DNA of 11,310 bases from Tannerella sp. (lineage in GTDB: Bacteria; Bacteroidota; Bacteroidia; Bacteroidales; Tannerellaceae). A model generated the notes under the pieces. That model was not told where the DNA came from and ran no database searches. It saw only the letters and a program-made list of their open reading frames with translations. Made by a program: the position numbers and the translations under genes. The stretch lies in the NCBI GenBank assembly GCA_031260095.1, contig JAIRKN010000090.1:1-11310 (forward strand), given 5' to 3'. Of the stretch, positions 1 through 11,310 are shown piece by piece (positions within the stretch are counted from its first letter, which is position 1; each line of letters begins with the position of its first letter).

Positions 1-993
1 TGTGGCGTTTGCCATACGGATGCGGCGGCATTACATTCGTTTATACCCGTCGCATTGCCGGTCATCCTCGGACATGAAGGGGTAGGGATTGTGGAAGAAG
101 TGGGAAGCGAGGTGACGACTTTAAAAAAAGGCGACCGTGTCATCCTGTCGTTCCCATCATGCGGAAAGTGTGACTATTGCCGCGACGACCATCCGTATGC
201 CTGTGACAATCTAAATACGTTGTTTTTTGACGGAACATACAACGACGGGACAAAACGTTTTTCCCGGAATGAGACGGAAATATCTTCCTTTTTCGGCCAG
301 GGCTCTTTTGCCGACCATGTCGTCATTGACGCACGCAATGCCGTAAAAGTAGAGGTGGATACGGACGAAGATCTGGCCAACCTGTGTTCGCTGGGTTGCG
401 GGGTACAGACCGGAGCCGGAGCCGTCCTGAACCGCATCAAACCGAAAAAAGGAAGTTCTATGGCCGTATTCGGCTGCGGAGGCGTAGGTATGAGCGCGAT
501 TATGGCAGCGGTAATTGCCGGGTGCGACACGATCATAGGAGTAGATATCGTCCCCGCCAGATTGGAACTGGCCCGGAAGCTCGGAGCTACGCATGTCATT
601 AACAGTAATGAAACAGACCCTGTGACGGAGATAAAAAGAATTACCGGAGGCGGAGCGCATAACAGTGTGGAGTCATCGGGCATAGCCAACGTAACGCTTC
701 AGGCGCTCGGATGCCTAAGACGCGAAGGCACAGCCGTTCTGCTCAGTGTGACGGGGCCGGAAGAGATCAGCCTGCCGCTTGAAGCGCTTATCCTGAATCC
801 GAGCGTAACGCTAACGGGACTCAGCGAAGGAGCCTCCAATCCCCGGACATTTATCCCCAAACTGGTTCAATACTACAAAGAAGGCAGGCTACCGGTCGAA
901 AAACTTGTCAAATTCTATGACTTCAAAGAGATAGAAAAGGCTTTCGAAGATTCACATAAAGGGAAAACAATAAAACCGGTTCTGCGCTTTTAG
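1..993 (+). CDS. Zn-dependent alcohol dehydrogenase, aryl/benzyl-alcohol type (5' partial)
   Basis: Medium-chain (MDR) alcohol dehydrogenase, expected to oxidise primary, probably aromatic, alcohols to aldehydes with NAD in the cytoplasm. The frame is open from base 1, so the gene starts outside the window. The 330 visible residues compare with about 365-370 for the family, so roughly 37 N-terminal residues are missing. Numbered from base 1, the catalytic zinc ligands are Cys4 (in CGVCHTD), His25-Glu26 (in GHEGVG) and Cys133 (in GCGVQTG). The structural zinc lobe has all four cysteines, at 54, 57, 60 and 68 (C-x2-C-x2-C-x7-C). The Rossmann glycines are in FGCGGVG (about 157-163), and Asp182 (GVDIV) points to NAD rather than NADP. 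The SFFGQGSFADH and GCGVQTGAGAVLN segments resemble aryl-alcohol dehydrogenases of the XylB type; this is from memory of the family, and the substrate is not proven. It is GC-richer than the operon that follows. No terminator hairpin is visible after the TAG stop. Confidence 0.9.
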   Translation, partial: CGVCHTDAAALHSFIPVALPVILGHEGVGIVEEVGSEVTTLKKGDRVILSFPSCGKCDYCRDDHPYACDNLNTLFFDGTYNDGTKRFSRNETEISSFFGQGSFADHVVIDARNAVKVEVDTDEDLANLCSLGCGVQTGAGAVLNRIKPKKGSSMAVFGCGGVGMSAIMAAVIAGCDTIIGVDIVPARLELARKLGATHVINSNETDPVTEIKRITGGGAHNSVESSGIANVTLQALGCLRREGTAVLLSVTGPEEISLPLEALILNPSVTLTGLSEGASNPRTFIPKLVQYYKEGRLPVEKLVKFYDFKEIEKAFEDSHKGKTIKPVLRF

Positions 994-1060
994 ACGGAAT
1001 CGGTATAAATGTATGGCAAATATTCAAATTACGAATAGCGCCTGATGAGTCACTAAAAGT

Positions 1061-1075
1061 TATATATATATATAT
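1061..1075. repeat. (TA)n simple repeat
   Basis: Fifteen bases of alternating T and A (7.5 units), lying between the end of the alcohol dehydrogenase and the promoter at 1109-1138. It is about 34 bp upstream of the -33 element. It could slip in length or act as an AT-rich upstream element, but nothing shows a function. Confidence 0.8.
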
Positions 1076-1108
1076 CAATTCGGCAACAGTTAAACAAGCG
1101 TAATTTTT

Positions 1109-1138
1109 TTTGGAAGTTTGATAATTGCAGTAATTTTG
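1109..1138 (+). promoter_or_regulatory. Bacteroidota-type promoter for the GT/dehydrogenase operon
   Basis: TTTG at 1109-1112 and TAATTTTG at 1131-1138 match the Bacteroidota primary sigma factor consensus (-33 TTTG, -7 TAnnTTTG). The 18-bp spacer puts the two boxes at the expected distance. Transcription should start near 1142-1146, giving a 5' leader of about 46-50 nt before the ATG at 1192. No other equally good promoter was seen before the operon. It was probably the native promoter of the dehydrogenase gene before the two glycosyltransferase genes came between them (inference). Confidence 0.65.
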
Positions 1139-1161
1139 CGCAAATGAGTAGAAACACGTTG

Positions 1162-1257
1162 TATTTTTTAATAATTTAAAGGAGAAAAAAAATGGGTAAA
1201 AAATTGTTTGCTTTGGCAGGCGGCGGAAAAATTTGCGGCTGGGCATTAAGAACTGCA
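1162..1257 (+). repeat. Direct repeat, upstream copy (leader, RBS and first 22 codons of the dehydrogenase)
   Basis: This copy matches 3430-3526 in about 93 of 98 aligned columns. It covers a T-run, AATAATTTAAAGGAG, an A-run, the ATG and 21 further codons. Differences are a T6/T5 run length, two missing bases between the GGAG and the ATG, and two third-position changes (ATT/ATC Ile and AGA/AGG Arg). Similarity stops sharply after the GCA codon at 1255-1257. The promoter lies immediately upstream of this copy only. Confidence 0.95.
1178..1184 (+). promoter_or_regulatory. Ribosome binding site of the stub ORF
   Basis: AAAGGAG followed by seven A residues and then the ATG at 1192. This is a strong Shine-Dalgarno sequence, which is uncommon in Bacteroidota. 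It is shared with the full-length dehydrogenase gene (3445-3451). It is likely the first site where ribosomes load on the operon mRNA. Confidence 0.7.
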
Positions 1258-1290
1258 GAGAACATTTTAAGATATGAAAGCGCTTTTTGA
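1192..1290 (+). pseudogene. Truncated 5' copy of the saccharopine dehydrogenase-like gene; possible 32-aa leader peptide
   Basis: A short ORF of 32 codons. Its first 22 residues (MGKKLFALAGGGKICG and on) are identical to the N-terminus of the full dehydrogenase at 3461. It then diverges into ENILRYESAF and stops with TGA at 1288-1290. It holds only the first strand, glycine loop and start of the first helix of a Rossmann fold, so it cannot be an enzyme. It has the operon promoter and a strong ribosome binding site, so it is probably translated. Its last 17 nt overlap, in another frame, the start of the first glycosyltransferase (ATG at 1274). That arrangement would let ribosomes ending on the stub restart on the next gene, although coupling is an inference. 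It is either a relic of an insertion or a by-product now used as a translation leader. Confidence 0.75.
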
Positions 1291-2320
1291 TTGCGAACGG
1301 ATGAAGCATCCGTATATAGGACTGTTTGAATATTGTTCCCAGTTGGGACATGCATTAAAAGTCACTGTCGATGCAGATAACGAAATTTCGTTTTATGTTC
1401 CTCCAAAACACGAAAATTATTTTGGCAACAACAGTCGATATTATATATACTCGCCTGTTCACAGGTTTTTTCCCCTGAAAACAAAGAAAGTTGATATTTG
1501 GCACTCTTCTAATGCGCAATCGGCGTTCGTTAAAAGTTCACGGAAAATGAAACGTATTGTAACGATTCACGACCTTAATTTCCTGTACGAAAAAACACCG
1601 CGAAAAATAAACAAATATTTAAAAGCATTTCAAAATAGCATAGATAGAGCTGATGCGGTTATCACTATCTCGGAATATTCTAAAACAGATATTCTAAATC
1701 ATCTGAACATGGAAAGAAAACCGGTATTTGTTATATATAACGGCTGTAATGTCCTGGAATTTCCCGATTATGATACCCCTTTATATCGTCCTATGGTTCC
1801 GTTTCTGTTTTCGATAGGAACGGTTTTACCTAAAAAGAATTTTCATGTATTACCCTGTTTGCTAAAAAATAATGACTTCGAATTAATTATATCCGGAAAA
1901 GGAAATGATAATTATATTCAAAAAATTGTGGAAGAGGCTAAAAAACATAATGTCGAAGGCAGGATAAAACTGACAGGTCCGGTAAAAAACGAAGATAAAT
2001 ACTGGTATTTGAAAAATTGCTCAGCGTTTTTGTTTCCGTCTTTAGCCGAAGGATTTGGGATTCCCCCGGTTGAAGCCATGCATTTCGGTAAGCCGGTATT
2101 TTTATCAACAAAAACTTCGTTACCGGAAATCGGAGGACAACATGCTTATTACTTCAACGATTTCGACCCCGAAAACATGCGAAAAGTCTTTGAAGCAGGA
2201 ATGAATCATTATGCACAGACTAATCCTGCGGCATCAATTATCCGACATGCCAATCAATTCAACTGGAAAAACAGCGCAAAAGCCTATTGGGAAGTGTATA
2301 AATCCATATCACAGTTATAA
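1274..2320 (+). CDS. Glycosyltransferase, GT4/GT-B family (first of pair)
   Basis: A 348-residue GT-B glycosyltransferase, likely cytoplasmic or membrane-peripheral, moving a sugar from a nucleotide donor during surface polysaccharide assembly. The N-terminal domain starts MKALFDCERMKHP and has IHDLNF (98-103) and the ISEYSKTD segment (132-139). The C-terminal glycosyltransferase group 1 domain has GTVLPKKN (182-189), with the basic residues that contact the donor phosphate. It also has the E-x7-E motif EGFGIPPVE (Glu259 and Glu267). There is no signal peptide or membrane segment. An in-frame TAA at 1268-1270 rules out any start upstream of 1274. No Shine-Dalgarno is seen, and the ATG lies inside the 3' end of the stub ORF, which suggests translational coupling. 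The next gene begins 6 nt after its stop. Donor and acceptor cannot be read from the sequence; mannose is common for related enzymes. Arg codons are mostly CGN, unlike the dehydrogenase gene. Confidence 0.9.
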   Translation: MKALFDCERMKHPYIGLFEYCSQLGHALKVTVDADNEISFYVPPKHENYFGNNSRYYIYSPVHRFFPLKTKKVDIWHSSNAQSAFVKSSRKMKRIVTIHDLNFLYEKTPRKINKYLKAFQNSIDRADAVITISEYSKTDILNHLNMERKPVFVIYNGCNVLEFPDYDTPLYRPMVPFLFSIGTVLPKKNFHVLPCLLKNNDFELIISGKGNDNYIQKIVEEAKKHNVEGRIKLTGPVKNEDKYWYLKNCSAFLFPSLAEGFGIPPVEAMHFGKPVFLSTKTSLPEIGGQHAYYFNDFDPENMRKVFEAGMNHYAQTNPAASIIRHANQFNWKNSAKAYWEVYKSISQL

Positions 2321-2326
2321 AATGCC

Positions 2327-3454
2327 ATGAAAATAGGATTTGACGCCAAAAGAGCTATTCAGAACAATACCGGTTTGGGGAATTACAGCCGGTATGTCAT
2401 TGAAATATTATCGAAATATTACCCCGATAACAGCTATATTCTTTTTGCACCCAAACAAAAAGAAAACAGTCGTTTGAATACCATTTTGTCACGAACAAAT
2501 ATTTCCTTTGTTTTTCCTGACGGAATAGCTAAAATATTTTCTCCGCTTTGGCGGATATTGGGCATAAAAAAAGATATACGAAAACAAAATCTTGCAATCT
2601 ATCATGGACTCAGTAATGAACTGCCGGTTGGAATAAAAAAAACAGGCGTCAAATCCGTAGTAACAATTCACGATTTGATTTTTCTCCGTTACCCGGAATA
2701 CTACAAACCAATAGATCGTTTCATTTATAAATTGAAATTTAAAGCGGCTTGTCAACAGGCTGATAAAATCATTGCTGTCAGCGAATGTACAAAACGTGAT
2801 ATTGTTTCATTTTTTCATATTCCCGAAGAAAAAATAACGGTTGTATATCAGGGCTGTCATCCTGATTTCAGTATAAAAGTTTCGGAAGAAAAAAAGTCGG
2901 AAATAATTAGTAAATATTCTTTACCTCTTCGTTTTATCCTGTTTGTTGGAAGCATCGAAGCGCGTAAAAACCTGTTATTAACAGTAAAAGCGTTAAAAGG
3001 CATTTCGGAAGATATTCATTTGGTAGCAATAGGTAAATCTACGCCATATCAATCGGTTGTAGAACAATACGCCGAAAAATCGGGAATAAAATCCCGTTTG
3101 CATATACTTAATAATGTTCCTTTTGAGGATTTGCCGGCATTGTATCAGTCGGCGGCTATATTTGTTTATCCTTCGTTTTTTGAGGGCTTCGGTATTCCTG
3201 TAATCGAAGCTTTGAGCAGCGAAATTCCGGTTATCGCAGCCACCGGTTCCTGTCTGGAGGAAGCCGGTGGTCCCGGTTCAATATACGTCGATCCCAACGA
3301 CACCGCCGAATTATCGGAACGGATTATGGAGATCGTAAATAATCAAGAACTGACGAATAATATGATTGAATCGGGAAAAGAATATGTGCAGCGTTTTTCG
3401 GAAGACGCTATATCTGCAGAAATAATGAATATTTTTAATAATTTAAAGGAGTAA
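2327..3454 (+). CDS. Glycosyltransferase, GT4/GT-B family, mannosyltransferase-like (second of pair)
   Basis: A 375-residue GT-B glycosyltransferase, similar in layout to O-antigen mannosyltransferases of the GT4 family. The acceptor-side domain begins MKIGFDAKRA with the glycine loop TGLGNYSR (15-22). TIHDLIFL (113-120) and VSECTKRD (151-158) follow. The donor domain has FVGSIEARKN (206-215) and the E-x7-E motif EGFGIPVIE (Glu286 and Glu294), then GSCLEEAGG (307-315). The ATG is 6 nt after the previous stop, without a clear Shine-Dalgarno. Its 3' end is odd. The last codons, encoding IFNNLKE and the TAA at 3452-3454, lie within the downstream direct-repeat copy, so the stop overlaps the AAAGGAG site of the dehydrogenase gene. 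A T that is missing from the upstream copy creates that stop. The original C-terminus may therefore have been replaced when the cassette joined the repeat (inference). Substrate is unknown. Confidence 0.9.
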   Translation: MKIGFDAKRAIQNNTGLGNYSRYVIEILSKYYPDNSYILFAPKQKENSRLNTILSRTNISFVFPDGIAKIFSPLWRILGIKKDIRKQNLAIYHGLSNELPVGIKKTGVKSVVTIHDLIFLRYPEYYKPIDRFIYKLKFKAACQQADKIIAVSECTKRDIVSFFHIPEEKITVVYQGCHPDFSIKVSEEKKSEIISKYSLPLRFILFVGSIEARKNLLLTVKALKGISEDIHLVAIGKSTPYQSVVEQYAEKSGIKSRLHILNNVPFEDLPALYQSAAIFVYPSFFEGFGIPVIEALSSEIPVIAATGSCLEEAGGPGSIYVDPNDTAELSERIMEIVNNQELTNNMIESGKEYVQRFSEDAISAEIMNIFNNLKE

Positions 3455-3526
3455 AAAAAAATGGGTAAAAAATTGTTTGCTTTGGCAGGCGGCGGAAAAA
3501 TCTGCGGCTGGGCATTAAGGACTGCA
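3430..3526 (+). repeat. Direct repeat, downstream copy (leader, RBS and first 22 codons of the dehydrogenase)
   Basis: The partner of 1162-1257. It carries the end of the second glycosyltransferase, the ribosome binding site and the first 22 codons of the intact dehydrogenase. Unlike the upstream copy it has no promoter directly before it, since the sequence just upstream is glycosyltransferase coding sequence. The spacing from ATG to ATG is 2269 bp. Confidence 0.95.
3445..3451 (+). promoter_or_regulatory. Ribosome binding site overlapping a stop codon
   Basis: AAAGGAG, 9 nt before the ATG at 3461, with the upstream gene's TAA directly abutting it at 3452-3454. Ribosomes finishing the second glycosyltransferase cover this site, so coupling between the two genes is likely. 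Confidence 0.7.
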
Positions 3527-4657
3527 GCAATGCTTTCCGAAAGTGATCTTTTCGACAGGATTACAATTGGGGACTGTAATATTGAGGCGGCAGAAGCTAT
3601 TAAAAAGGAACTTAATGATCCGGGAATAGATGTTGTTAAAATTGATATTTATGACGAAGAAGATGCCATAAAAAAGATGAAAGGCTATGATATTGTTCTT
3701 GACGGAACAACAATTAGCATGAATGGCCAGTCTACAAAAGTTATTGGAGCAGCAGGTGCAAACGGAATTAATCTTAACGGGTTTGGCGCTGAAAATCAAT
3801 ATTCCGATGTTTTTAAAAAAAACAGCACAGCCTGTTTGCCCGGATATGGAATGACTCCCGGTCTTACAGATTCGATGGTTAGGGCAGGATCCGAAAAACT
3901 TGATAAAATTGATACTGTAAGAATAAGCCACTGCGCTTACAGGCCAATTGCTTATTCGCCTGCAATATTTGAAACAACTGCAGTAGAATATGATCCTGAT
4001 TTTAAAGCAAGAGTTGTTTATGAAGACGGTAAAATGATACAGGTTCCGCCTTTTGCGAGAGAAAGATATATTCCTGCACCTGAGCCTTACGGAACAAACC
4101 CTCAGTATATTATTCCCCATTCGGAAACAATTACTGCAGAGGCTTATTTAAGGAAAACAGGCAAGCCGGCGCGCCTTATAGAAGTGCGCGGAACATGGCC
4201 CCAAAAAAATATGAGGCTTATTAAAGCTTTGTATGAATGGGGTATAATGAAAAATGATTCTTTCAGTTACAAAGGGCAAGAGATGAAAATTATGGATGTG
4301 CTTGGCGCATATCTCCAGCAGAAAGAATCAGGAAGAGTAACGGATGTTTATGGTTACTGCCTGTATATTCAGTTGCTTGGAGAAAGGGACGGTAAAAAGT
4401 ATGAAGAAGTTTTGTATCATACACATCCGAAATCAGACGGCTCTGTAAAAGGGTGGGAAGGACTTACCGCTTACATAAGAAATGTAGGAAGCCCGATGGG
4501 AGTTGCCGCTATTCTTATGGCTCAAGGTAAGTGCACAGGTACAGGAATTATAACTCCTGAAGAAGCTTTTGACCCCCAAGACGTATTTAATCTTCTTGAA
4601 CAGGTCGGTATCCAAATTCATCAAAGCGAGAGAGAAATCCCTGATTATAATTATTGA
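3461..4657 (+). CDS. Saccharopine dehydrogenase-like NAD(P)-dependent oxidoreductase
   Basis: A 398-residue protein of the saccharopine dehydrogenase family (N-terminal NAD(P) Rossmann domain plus C-terminal catalytic domain). Members reduce or form C-N bonds of amino acids, as in lysine metabolism or carboxynorspermidine synthesis. Residues 7-16 (ALAGGGKICG) form the dinucleotide loop, with spacing G-x-G-x3-G rather than the usual G-x-G-x2-G. ITIGDCN (34-40) ends the second strand. CLPGYGMTPGLTD (125-137) matches the conserved PGL segment of the family. The C-terminal half has HTHPKSDG (320-327) and GTGIITPEEAF (360-370). No signal peptide or membrane segment is seen. The start at 3461 follows a strong AAAGGAG and equals the start of the stub at 1192. 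Arg is almost always AGA/AGG and Leu is often CTT, unlike every neighbour, which suggests acquisition from another lineage. The exact reaction cannot be assigned. It is last in the operon and ends 3 nt from the convergent alpha-2-macroglobulin gene. Confidence 0.85.
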   Translation: MGKKLFALAGGGKICGWALRTAAMLSESDLFDRITIGDCNIEAAEAIKKELNDPGIDVVKIDIYDEEDAIKKMKGYDIVLDGTTISMNGQSTKVIGAAGANGINLNGFGAENQYSDVFKKNSTACLPGYGMTPGLTDSMVRAGSEKLDKIDTVRISHCAYRPIAYSPAIFETTAVEYDPDFKARVVYEDGKMIQVPPFARERYIPAPEPYGTNPQYIIPHSETITAEAYLRKTGKPARLIEVRGTWPQKNMRLIKALYEWGIMKNDSFSYKGQEMKIMDVLGAYLQQKESGRVTDVYGYCLYIQLLGERDGKKYEEVLYHTHPKSDGSVKGWEGLTAYIRNVGSPMGVAAILMAQGKCTGTGIITPEEAFDPQDVFNLLEQVGIQIHQSEREIPDYNY

Positions 4658-4660
4658 TTT

Positions 4661-7600
4661 TTAATATTCCGAACCGCCCACTTTCACCCGTATGCCTTCG
4701 CTGTGTGCACTAAATTCGGGGGCGTACATACACTGAAATGTAGTGATGCCATTAGAGAAATCTCCCACGTGTGAAACGCGCAGGTCGTATTCAAAGACAT
4801 ACGTACCCTTACGCAAAGAGGTAATAAAGAAATGGGTCGAAGCATCTTTTACGCTTTCGTAATACCACAATCCGTCCTGATAACGGCCTCCGGAATGGGC
4901 GCTTGCCGGCTCAAAACCGGACGCGCGCATATCTTTCAGGTGTACGTATTCATAATCACGGTCGGCCCGCAACTCCATTCGTACACGTACCAGGTCGCCT
5001 GCGTTCAGTTGGCTGGTTTCGTTGATGGGCTGCAATACTTCTCCTTTCTTTGTCAATATCCGCAAGAAGAGTTGTTTGTTCATCTTCAGATTCGTTTCAG
5101 CCGAAGTGATTTTATCCAATTGTTCGAAATACTGCCAGTACATGCCGCCCCAGGCAATCCCTTTGCTATTCGGATTCGTCACATTCAGTTCACCCATCTG
5201 GGGAGTGATCTCACCTCCCTGCCAGCTTGTTTTCACATAGCCGGTACCGGCCTCAGGTTTTATCTCCTCTTTCGCTACCTGCGCCAACGGCTTACCGCCG
5301 ATTTCCACCTCAAGCAGTTTCGATTCGTCCAACAGGTTACCGCCTGTCATCAGCAACGCATAGACGGCTTCGGACGTAGCTTTAGTCGTTTTCCAACTGT
5401 TCGTCTGTTTATTTCGGAGCAACCAGATCTTCATTTCTTCGACCGCATCCCCGTCTTTTGCCACCTCATTAAATGCTTCTATCAGCATTGCCTGTGTTTC
5501 AACCGGAGCCTGATGCCAGAAATACCCCGCCGTATTATCTTTCCAGTACATCCCCAGCTCTTCGGACTGTTGCGCATATTCTTTCAGTGAACGTATGATC
5601 TCCATCGCTTTATCCGGCCGGTCATTACGATGCAGGACGAGTGCAGCCATTGCTTTTTCGTAAGTAGAAAACTTTTTCCAGTGTTCCCCGGTCTGCATCA
5701 GATAATAATCGAAGGCCGTCTTTGCTTTCCCGTCCGGTTGATGACCATTGAAACTGCATGAGTAGAGATAATGTAACTGAATGGGAGATATCTGTTGTTT
5801 TTCCTGATCCTCTTTGCGGCGGATCAACCTATCATAATCCTTCCATATCTCAGCATCCAGATAATGCAACCCATCCCGCACCATTGCATCCGCATCCGGC
5901 ATGTTCTTTTTCTGCATAGCCTCCAGTTTCTTCAGGTGAGCCATTCCTGCGACAATATGTTGTGTGATATACCGGTTTGAAGGATTTCCGTCAAACCACG
6001 GGAAGCCGCCGTCACTATTTTGAACTTTTTTCAGTTTATCGAAAGCCCTGTTCAGTTCACCGCTCATACGATTCAGATCAAACAACAATCCGATGCGTTT
6101 CTTTCGTTCGGTTTCGTTCTTCGCCTGCACCACCCAGGGCGTTTCTTCCAGCATCACCTGTTTCAGCTCCCGGTTTTTCTCCAGATCAGACGTCAGCGCC
6201 GGTGCATTCCAAAGCTCAAAAATCTGTTTGATACGCGGCGTTTTATTAACCACGGTTGTCGCAAGCGTATTCGCATAATAGCGGGAGAAAATCTGCTCGG
6301 CGCACTCATACGGATACTCCATAATATAGGGCAATGCCTGTACGGCATACCATGCCGGGGCGGAAGTAAACTCCAGTGTCAGGCTATGATTACGAAGCGT
6401 CTTTGATTGACTGCCGGCCAACTTATCAAATGTAAAAGTCTTCTCCTGCCCGGCGCGGACACTGAACGGAAGTGTTTCGGTGACCAACATCGAATTAGTC
6501 AGCACAGGCAGCGTTTTTTCTTCACCGTCCGTATGACTTCCGGCTTGCGCTGTCACTTTATATACAACAGCCTGCAAACCGGTTGGTATCGTAAGCTTCC
6601 AGCGAAGTCCTGCGCTCTCGCCCGGTTTCACATTGAACGGCAGTGTTTCTTCCGATTGCAGGACATCGTCGACCGGCTTCATCGTCACGGCGTCATACAA
6701 GCGCAACAAAGCCTGTCCGTCAAGTGATGATGCGGTCAGGTTATTCACTTTCGCCGTCAGTTCGATCACATCATTTTCACGGAAGAAACGCGGCGGATTA
6801 GCGCTTATTGCGACTTGCTTCCGTGTCACCAACTCATTTGAATACGTACCTGTTTTAAAGTCTTTCGTATGTGCAAAGCTCAACAATCTCCAGCGCGTCA
6901 ATGCTTCCGGCATCGTAAATTCAATCAGCGCTTCCCCGTTTTCATTCGTCCGCAGCTTCGGATAGAAAAACGCCGTTTCATTGAAATTTGTTCGTGTTTC
7001 GACCGCAGTCAGGTCGACGGGTGCTCCTGCCTCCCTGATTACTTCGGTAGGAGCTTTTCCCGCGCCTGTCATAACTTTTTCTTCAGGCATTGCAGGCGCT
7101 GCCGACGTTGCTTTCGCCCGTCCAAAGGCCACCAATTCCGGTTCATGCAATACATCATCCGCCGTTTCATTTCTTGCAGCGCGTCCCACCATTAACGGAA
7201 AAACAGGCGTATTTGCATAAAAGGCATTCCGGTAAGTCGCGTCATACCAGTTCAGATCCGTCAGGAAAACGGTATACTGCGGTGAAGCCGGAGATACATT
7301 ATTATACATTTTGGCTTGTGATAAACGCTGAAGGGACGACGTATTCCACTGGTACGTATAAGCATTCACATACTGGCCGTACAAACTTGAAAAATCAGAC
7401 CAGTTATGCGGCTGTATAGCATCCAGCGAAGCATCATAAAGAGAGGCGACTATTTCGGCCGTTTTTTTCCTGTCTTTTTTATCACTAACCGACATAGTCC
7501 ATACCTCACTCTCGCCGGGCAACAGCTTATCACGGAACGTAGCCAGCTTTACATCCAGCATCTTATTCGTATACGGAACGCTTATCTGCTGAAAACTTTT

Positions 7601-11055: not shown

Positions 11056-11164
11056 GTCATTGCGAACGGAGGCAAGGAGCGAGTTACCGGTGACACAGTA
11101 CTTGCCTCCGTCACCGGCAAAGGCATATCCTGAAGCAATCCGGATTGCTTCATAAAGTTATGAC
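11056..11164. repeat. Degenerate palindromic intergenic repeat element (about 109 bp)
   Basis: It begins GTCATTGCGAACGGAGGCAA and ends in ATGAC, so the outer 5 bases are inverted. Inside are CGGAGGCAAG (11067-11076) paired with CTTGCCTCCG (11101-11110), CCGGTGAC (11087-11094) paired with GTCACCGG (11110-11117), and a perfect 22-bp palindrome at 11131-11152 centred on ATCCGGAT. GTCATTGCGA and GAAGCAATCC resemble a common class of short dispersed intergenic repeats in many bacterial genomes (from memory). Here the usual junction appears interrupted by the ACCGGTGAC segment. It has no coding capacity. Confidence 0.55.
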
Positions 11165-11214
11165 GATGTTTTTGTTCCGGAAGGGTGGGGGGACTGTCGT
11201 CTTATCAGAACATT

Positions 11215-11310
11215 TTATTCTTCTTTTGAAATACTTTGGGGATGTACTTTAAAAGCATACTTTCCGGAAACAACTTCCAGTTGCCGGTAGCCCTCTTTCC
11301 AACCTTTATC
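11215..11310 (-). CDS. C-terminal end of an unidentified protein (5' partial)
   Basis: The minus-strand frame is open from the window edge to a TAA at 11215-11217, giving 31 residues that begin DKGWKEGYRQLEVV and end SISKEE. The composition looks like a normal protein end (alternating hydrophobic residues, charged tail), and codon use fits coding sequence. It is too short for me to recognise a family. It is on the same strand as the alpha-2-macroglobulin gene, but 464 bp of repeat-rich spacer separate them, so co-transcription is uncertain. Confidence 0.55.
   Translation of the reverse strand, partial: DKGWKEGYRQLEVVSGKYAFKVHPQSISKEE

Follow-up and report, generated by a model that had tools for sequence, protein, structure and literature searches.

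How did two glycosyltransferase genes come to lie between two copies of the beginning of a third gene? The question is raised by a stretch of Tannerella sp. DNA (contig JAIRKN010000090.1, 11,310 bases; hereafter the window), which is the whole of contig C261 of draft genome G000 (1,830,713 bases in 284 contigs, 73% complete). The leader, ribosome-binding site and first 22 codons of a gene for a saccharopine dehydrogenase-like protein (DH) occur there twice, the second time running on into the full gene, and between the two copies of this start module lie exactly two genes, GT1 and GT2, both encoding glycosyltransferases of GT4 type. We regard the locus as an operon that probably formed in a one-off illegitimate insertion, and not as a new mobile element. 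With a little more confidence than doubt, we propose that DH already stood behind a Bacteroidota-type promoter when one illegitimate recombination event inserted GT1-GT2 into its start.

A dehydrogenase start present twice

By BLAST the module copies are 1165-1258 and 3432-3527 (96% identity, E 2.8e-38); a finer alignment that allows for an offset in a T-run takes them to about 1162-1258 and 3430-3527, a block of 94-98 bases. Their five differing columns comprise one T in the T-run, a gap of two bases behind GGAG and two substitutions, both synonymous. The 22 encoded residues are identical, the longest identical run common to both copies is 48 bases, and agreement ends after codon 22. A reading made from the letters alone (the sequence-only reading) had counted about 93 matching columns of 98, with exactly two glycosyltransferase genes between the modules, the full dehydrogenase gene after the second and a promoter before the first, and our alignment and gene assignments (Table 1) uphold it. 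The promoter, a match to what we take to be the Bacteroidota consensus, is the sole one in the window and is weak by itself, given that 70 of 200 shuffles contain at least one. In a scan of 990-3600 for structured RNA, no Rfam family attained its gathering score.

Table 1. Features of the window, with positions counted from its first base
Feature	Start	End	Strand	Basis or remark
Zinc alcohol dehydrogenase (ADH) gene, host lineage, cut by the contig start	1	993	+	Pfam ADH_N / ADH_zinc_N; left neighbour of the island
Decayed IS66-type insertion sequence (IS) end, no gene	1007	1053	+	Outside the duplicated module
Bacteroidota-type promoter match, TTTG-N18-TAATTTTG	1109	1138	+	Presumed to drive DH and, at present, the whole operon
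Module copy 1: DH leader, Shine-Dalgarno AAAGGAG, start codon at 1192, first 22 codons	1162	1258	+
32-residue open frame: 22 DH codons and 10 more, overrunning the GT1 start codon by 14 bases	1192	1290	+	Translation
Left junction and about 15 bases resembling GT1's own upstream sequence	1259	1273	+	CATTTTAA common to congeners G007 and G022
GT1, GT4-type glycosyltransferase, 348 aa	1274	2320	+	Pfam Glycos_transf_1 / Glyco_transf_4
GT2, GT4-type glycosyltransferase, 375 aa, last residues NNLKE from the DH leader	2327	3454	+	Pfam
Right junction: 3-base overlap TAT of native GT2 sequence and DH leader	3430	3432	+
Module copy 2: same leader and first 22 codons, running on into full DH	3430	3527	+
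DH, saccharopine dehydrogenase-like gene, spirochaete type, 398 aa, intact	3461	4657	+	Pfam Sacchrp_dh_C / Sacchrp_dh_NADP
Alpha-2-macroglobulin gene, host lineage, convergent right neighbour	4661	10798	-	Pfam A2M, MG2, bMG10; congeners

The module is a genuine DH start in spirochaetes, so that its tie to the dehydrogenase, proposed in the sequence-only reading, holds in other genomes as well. DH is 76-78% identical to proteins of three Spirochaetaceae metagenome-assembled genomes labelled Lab288 (loci L010-L012), a label listed in PMC7024585 for the termite Labiotermes labralis. Its first 22 residues are nearly the same in the DH genes of termite-gut spirochaetes, and at the DNA level L011 aligns with the module over 82 columns, part of the leader included, at 80% identity. 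Some relatives carry the name lysine 6-dehydrogenase. A 67-row tree, built from the window, six of the nine spirochaete loci and the first 60 of the 120 relatives listed out of 996 found, places the window DH in a 19-row clade with support 100/100. Nine of the 18 other rows there are named, all as Spirochaetota, and the clade contains two pairs of identical rows; the placement of the window DH inside it is poorly supported (90/46). The end branch of the window DH (0.28) is longer than any other in the clade, perhaps because the gene evolved faster once transferred or because its donor is unsampled. Within the host family (123 genomes, G000 and 122 others), 12 genomes including G000 match DH at E 1e-6 or better, the 11 others at no more than 26% identity, and none of the 122 has a close copy. 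Since the named members of its clade are all spirochaetes and the family holds no close copy, DH was probably acquired from another phylum. Viral contigs (IMG/VR) hold no DH relative. The DH stop lies 3 bases from that of the convergent alpha-2-macroglobulin gene (4655-4663), so the acquisition would end almost exactly at DH's own stop codon.

Searched against the whole assembly, the module matches two places, copies 1 and 2 themselves. A survey for direct repeats, with 45 bases and 80% identity as the minimum, covered 122 sequences including the window (807,011 of the 1,830,713 bases, two contigs being cut at 20 kb; 25,143 bases masked as N in nine contigs leave 781,868 readable, about 43% of the assembly). 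It found 14 such repeats, 13 of them spaced by at most 255 bases and the module pair alone by more than 300. The set of 48 other glycosyltransferase loci, in which several places are covered twice and one locus is partly masked, shows no flanking duplication comparable to that of the window. A 68% repeat flanking GT2 in G040, a distant genome of the order, was rejected as a second case because it is a dispersed repeat with at least 41 matches in that genome, itself included. This repeat is intergenic (G040:C672:11244-11353, positions 2611-2720 of locus L037; CTCTTCGAG ... TTGCTTACGC) and probably terminator-like, and hundreds of unscored candidates stand beside the matches listed.

These surveys bear on the idea of a dedicated but so far unrecognised cassette process, one that would place genes at gene starts and double the start module as it does so. 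The clean gene-to-gene boundaries and the whole target gene speak for it; against it, no recombinase lies between the modules, the module occurs only twice in the genome, and no second case appeared in the surveyed part of the assembly or flanking the 48 other glycosyltransferase loci. We give it next to no credence, and the same applies to its broader form, in which gut Bacteroidales would possess a process inserting promoterless pairs at gene starts with the target kept, the cargo expressed and loop-out possible. Nor does the locus look like a transposon product. Transposon target duplications usually measure 2-14 bases, and the duplication here, as the sequence-only reading had also observed, is far longer. 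No transposase was found among the five genes scanned and no IS pair flanks the cargo, and the cargo ends carry no terminal inverted repeats: no 9-19-base pair with at most one mismatch was found within 60 bases of 1259 and 3432, and no inverted pair of 20 bases or more joins the two ends.

Cargo boundaries and a proposed order of events

The glycosyltransferase pair resembles genes of the host's own relatives. GT1 is 69-70% identical in congeners G007, G015 and G022, GT2 is 66-75% identical in G015, G022 and G007, and the two relatives are adjacent in G007. The closest other GT2 protein among the matches listed in a large protein set, P0122, is 88% identical, and the names present among the 120 GT2 matches listed are of Bacteroidia. 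No close GT2 was found in G045, the nearest relative by ADH. Contig C35 of the same assembly opens with a second GT2 tail, the contig beginning inside the gene. This tail is 96.5% identical over 142 bases and is followed there by its own GT2 3' end, tRNA-Gly, tRNA-Leu, tRNA-Leu and the DNA polymerase III beta subunit gene (dnaN); this dnaN was found in seven of nine congeners searched. GT2, and perhaps the whole pair, seems present at two places in G000 (the window and bases 1-760 of locus L094 from C35).

These two sequences part near the start of the second module copy. The window GT2 agrees with C35 up to 3432, where the match ends, and module copy 2 agrees with copy 1 from 3430, so that the cargo boundary and the module boundary coincide within 3 bases. 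The tails of GT2 homologs tell the same: the NNLKE ending occurs in one of the 120 proteins listed, namely the query itself, and in the other tails inspected conservation stops near IMNIY or a similar motif, beyond which the ends are short and variable. Entry of GT1-GT2 into the DH start would produce such a coincidence automatically, whereas a later upstream copying of that start would produce it only by accident, and the coincidence therefore argues that the pair was inserted into the beginning of a DH gene already present. The view of the sequence-only reading, that the 5' end of the dehydrogenase gene was duplicated by an insertion and the gene left whole at the far end, gains support from C35 and the homologs alike.

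The opposite order would have DH fused behind a native GT1-GT2 operon, with about 96 bases of the junction later copied between the promoter and GT1. This accounts for the fusion of GT2 to the DH leader, and template switching can generate short copies at dispersed sites. The copied piece must, however, start by chance within 3 bases of that fusion, and copy 1 has the relative-like state at both substituted sites. At one site copy 1 reads AGA, as do nine of nine spirochaete loci, and copy 2 reads AGG, as does none of the nine; at the other copy 1 reads ATT, as in six rumen-type loci (three termite loci have ATA), and copy 2 reads ATC, again found in none. Two sites make weak evidence, but they agree in suggesting that copy 1 is the more relative-like. 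Copy 1 also has GGAGA after the Shine-Dalgarno sequence, as in L010 and L011 and not in the other seven of the nine loci. We consider the opposite order distinctly improbable.

We tentatively propose the following course of events for the insertion of the pair into DH. A spirochaete-type DH would first have come to sit behind a Bacteroidota-type promoter in the host lineage. Then, most likely in a replication template switch or an event resembling microhomology-mediated break-induced replication (MMBIR), the copying strand would have switched out of DH at codon 22 to a GT1-GT2 template elsewhere, and then returned to DH at a point about 96 bases upstream of its exit. We take fork stalling and template switching (FoSTeS) to be a name for such microhomology-mediated switching. 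Rejoining upstream would have made the direct duplication, so that DH stayed whole and the pair gained the promoter and start signals of DH. A fragment captured at a widely staggered break, with the gaps filled in, could yield the same product by another route, and a long target duplication without homology at the joins is what either an upstream-returning template switch or such a capture is expected to leave. The TAT overlap at the right junction is too short to suit homologous recombination; its 3 bases lie inside the 2-5 base range of microhomology, although three alone are not far from chance.

The main rival to this single event takes two steps: a tandem duplication of DH, and then replacement of the first DH by the glycosyltransferase pair from codon 23 to the second leader. 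The final sequence would be identical and the coincidence of boundaries explained equally well. Yet one extra event is needed, the copies diverge after codon 22 with no other DH remnant in the window or genome, and a tandem DH is absent from all family genomes searched. We judge the two-step course unlikely, though it deserves more weight than any other competitor.

A Campbell-type integration, in which a circle bearing a DH start fragment together with GT1-GT2 recombined with the DH start, would likewise leave direct repeats of target homology flanking the insert, as found here. A single crossover of the circle yields two homologous segments around the cargo, and 94-98 bases may suffice for rare homologous recombination. 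Such a circle, however, must already hold the fusion of GT2 to the DH leader or that of the DH start to GT1, which only moves the problem back. The cargo moreover consists of two glycosyltransferases only, with no function typical of a plasmid, a phage or integration, and among 72,556 plasmid records nothing matches the island at the DNA level; we think this origin quite unlikely. The sequence-only reading had proposed Campbell-type integration or another cassette process as an option, and neither is favoured by a locus with no integrase gene, no plasmid match at the DNA level and no further example within the roughly 43% of the assembly surveyed.

Could the arrangement be an assembly artefact that joined two or more real loci? 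The genome is a 73%-complete draft of 284 contigs, and the start of C35 inside GT2 means that the assembly broke at this very gene. The module copies nevertheless differ at five columns, GT2 ends in a stop and a ribosome site that serve DH, and several separate false joins would be required. Two pairs of contig ends in the sampled contigs share an overlap of exactly 119 identical bases. This suggests 119 as the de Bruijn k, a value above the module length, but does not account for a third pair with an overlap of 74 bases. Since the apparent k exceeds the module, the copies differ at five columns and the fusion of GT2 to the DH leader works, a repeat collapse is unlikely, and we hold an artefact of any kind to be very improbable.

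Several points weigh against the single insertion that we favour. The data do not separate it from tandem duplication followed by replacement. Neither an uninterrupted DH nor a tandem DH was found in any family genome, and the pre-insertion state of DH, the 'empty site', is one that we infer. Two substituted sites are too few to say firmly which module copy is older. No second GT1 was found in this assembly, and the native upstream sequence of GT1, against which microhomology at the left junction would be read, is missing; C35, the witness for the right junction, may come from another strain in the bin. Finally, the stretch from the IS end to the module, which includes the presumed promoter, has short family matches only.

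Predicted expression and flanking sequence

The junctions suggest how the cargo may be expressed. No second promoter match of this type occurs in the window, and promoter, GT1, GT2 and DH likely form a single operon. The open frame that begins in copy 1 runs past the start codon of GT1, and translational coupling is possible, in that ribosomes arriving from the DH start signals could re-start on GT1. At the other end, GT2 ends in the Shine-Dalgarno sequence of DH, and it is the extra bases of copy 2 that put a TAA stop at the GT2 end. The differences between the module copies suggest that this state has persisted. Since the copies share 48 identical bases, loop-out of the pair by homologous recombination between them is conceivable. 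If the proposed insertion is correct, the locus offers a readable snapshot of the birth of an operon, in which a gene of spirochaete affinity in a member of the Bacteroidales was not lost but became promoter donor and last gene. It would illustrate how a gene pair can capture a promoter without breaking the target gene, by means of a duplication made during insertion, and a second case with other cargo, if found, would reopen the question of a dedicated mechanism.

Upstream of the promoter, the IS66-type remnant is 81-87% identical to nine places in six family genomes. In five translated loci this IS end trails a transposase-like frame, the one in L129 having a match to Pfam DDE_Tnp_IS66 (E 3.7e-8). 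The sequence-only reading had seen no integrase or transposase. For genes this stands, as a Pfam domain scan of five genes of the window found no transposase gene and no integrase gene, such as would point to a genomic island, an integrative and conjugative element or an integron with its attC-bearing gene cassettes; the IS66 end itself had been missed. In all six loci fetched from other family genomes (L125-L130) the IS66 end is less than 220 bases away from where a contig stops, and in L129 it sits in what looks like another transposase gene.

The left neighbour, ADH, is 94% identical in congener G045, which has other genes next to it and no close DH. The sequence behind ADH is readable in nine of ten congener loci fetched (the tenth stops 71 bases on) and starts differently in each, and no clean empty site is visible in these draft loci. 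The uninterrupted form of promoter, start module and dehydrogenase, for which the sequence-only reading had suggested a search of related genomes, did not turn up, with a close DH in none of the 122 other family genomes. At the right end of the contig (11066-11310) an inverted repeat occupies 11066-11111, and 11140-11310 is 95% identical to C53 of the same genome, probably as a dispersed repeat that ended the contig.

Comparison with known systems

A search of titles and abstract openings found no bacterial insertion flanked by a duplicated gene start, though one may be in print. One comparable known form is Campbell insertion-duplication, which leaves cargo flanked by direct repeats of the target with one target copy intact. 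The window is like such a product in holding its cargo between direct target repeats, and unlike it in that no circle, replication or integration gene is seen. Site-specific elements that enter the 5' ends of genes, for example SXT at prfC, encode an integrase, share a short core and leave the target expressed; the window resembles them in its insertion at a gene start and departs from them in its shared block of about 96 bases and its lack of an integrase.

The bacterial tandem duplications shown in PMC3784515 are long and lie between IS861 or IS1167 repeats, apart from one of 3,276 bp without flanking repeats. As in such merodiploid arrangements, an intact target gene stands here beside a disrupted copy, but the window doubles only about 96 bases. 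With homology-facilitated illegitimate recombination, as summarised in PMC3240628, it has in common that DNA is joined illegitimately; there one end is joined by homology, whereas the readable junction of the window shares three bases. The MMBIR model, as set out in PMC2621351, was proposed for human copy-number variants, drawing on work in E. coli and yeast, and gives junction microhomology of 2-5 bp. The window differs from that setting in that only one junction can be read and no other rearrangement is seen; it is like MMBIR in having a templated piece joined through a few shared bases with a duplication beside it.

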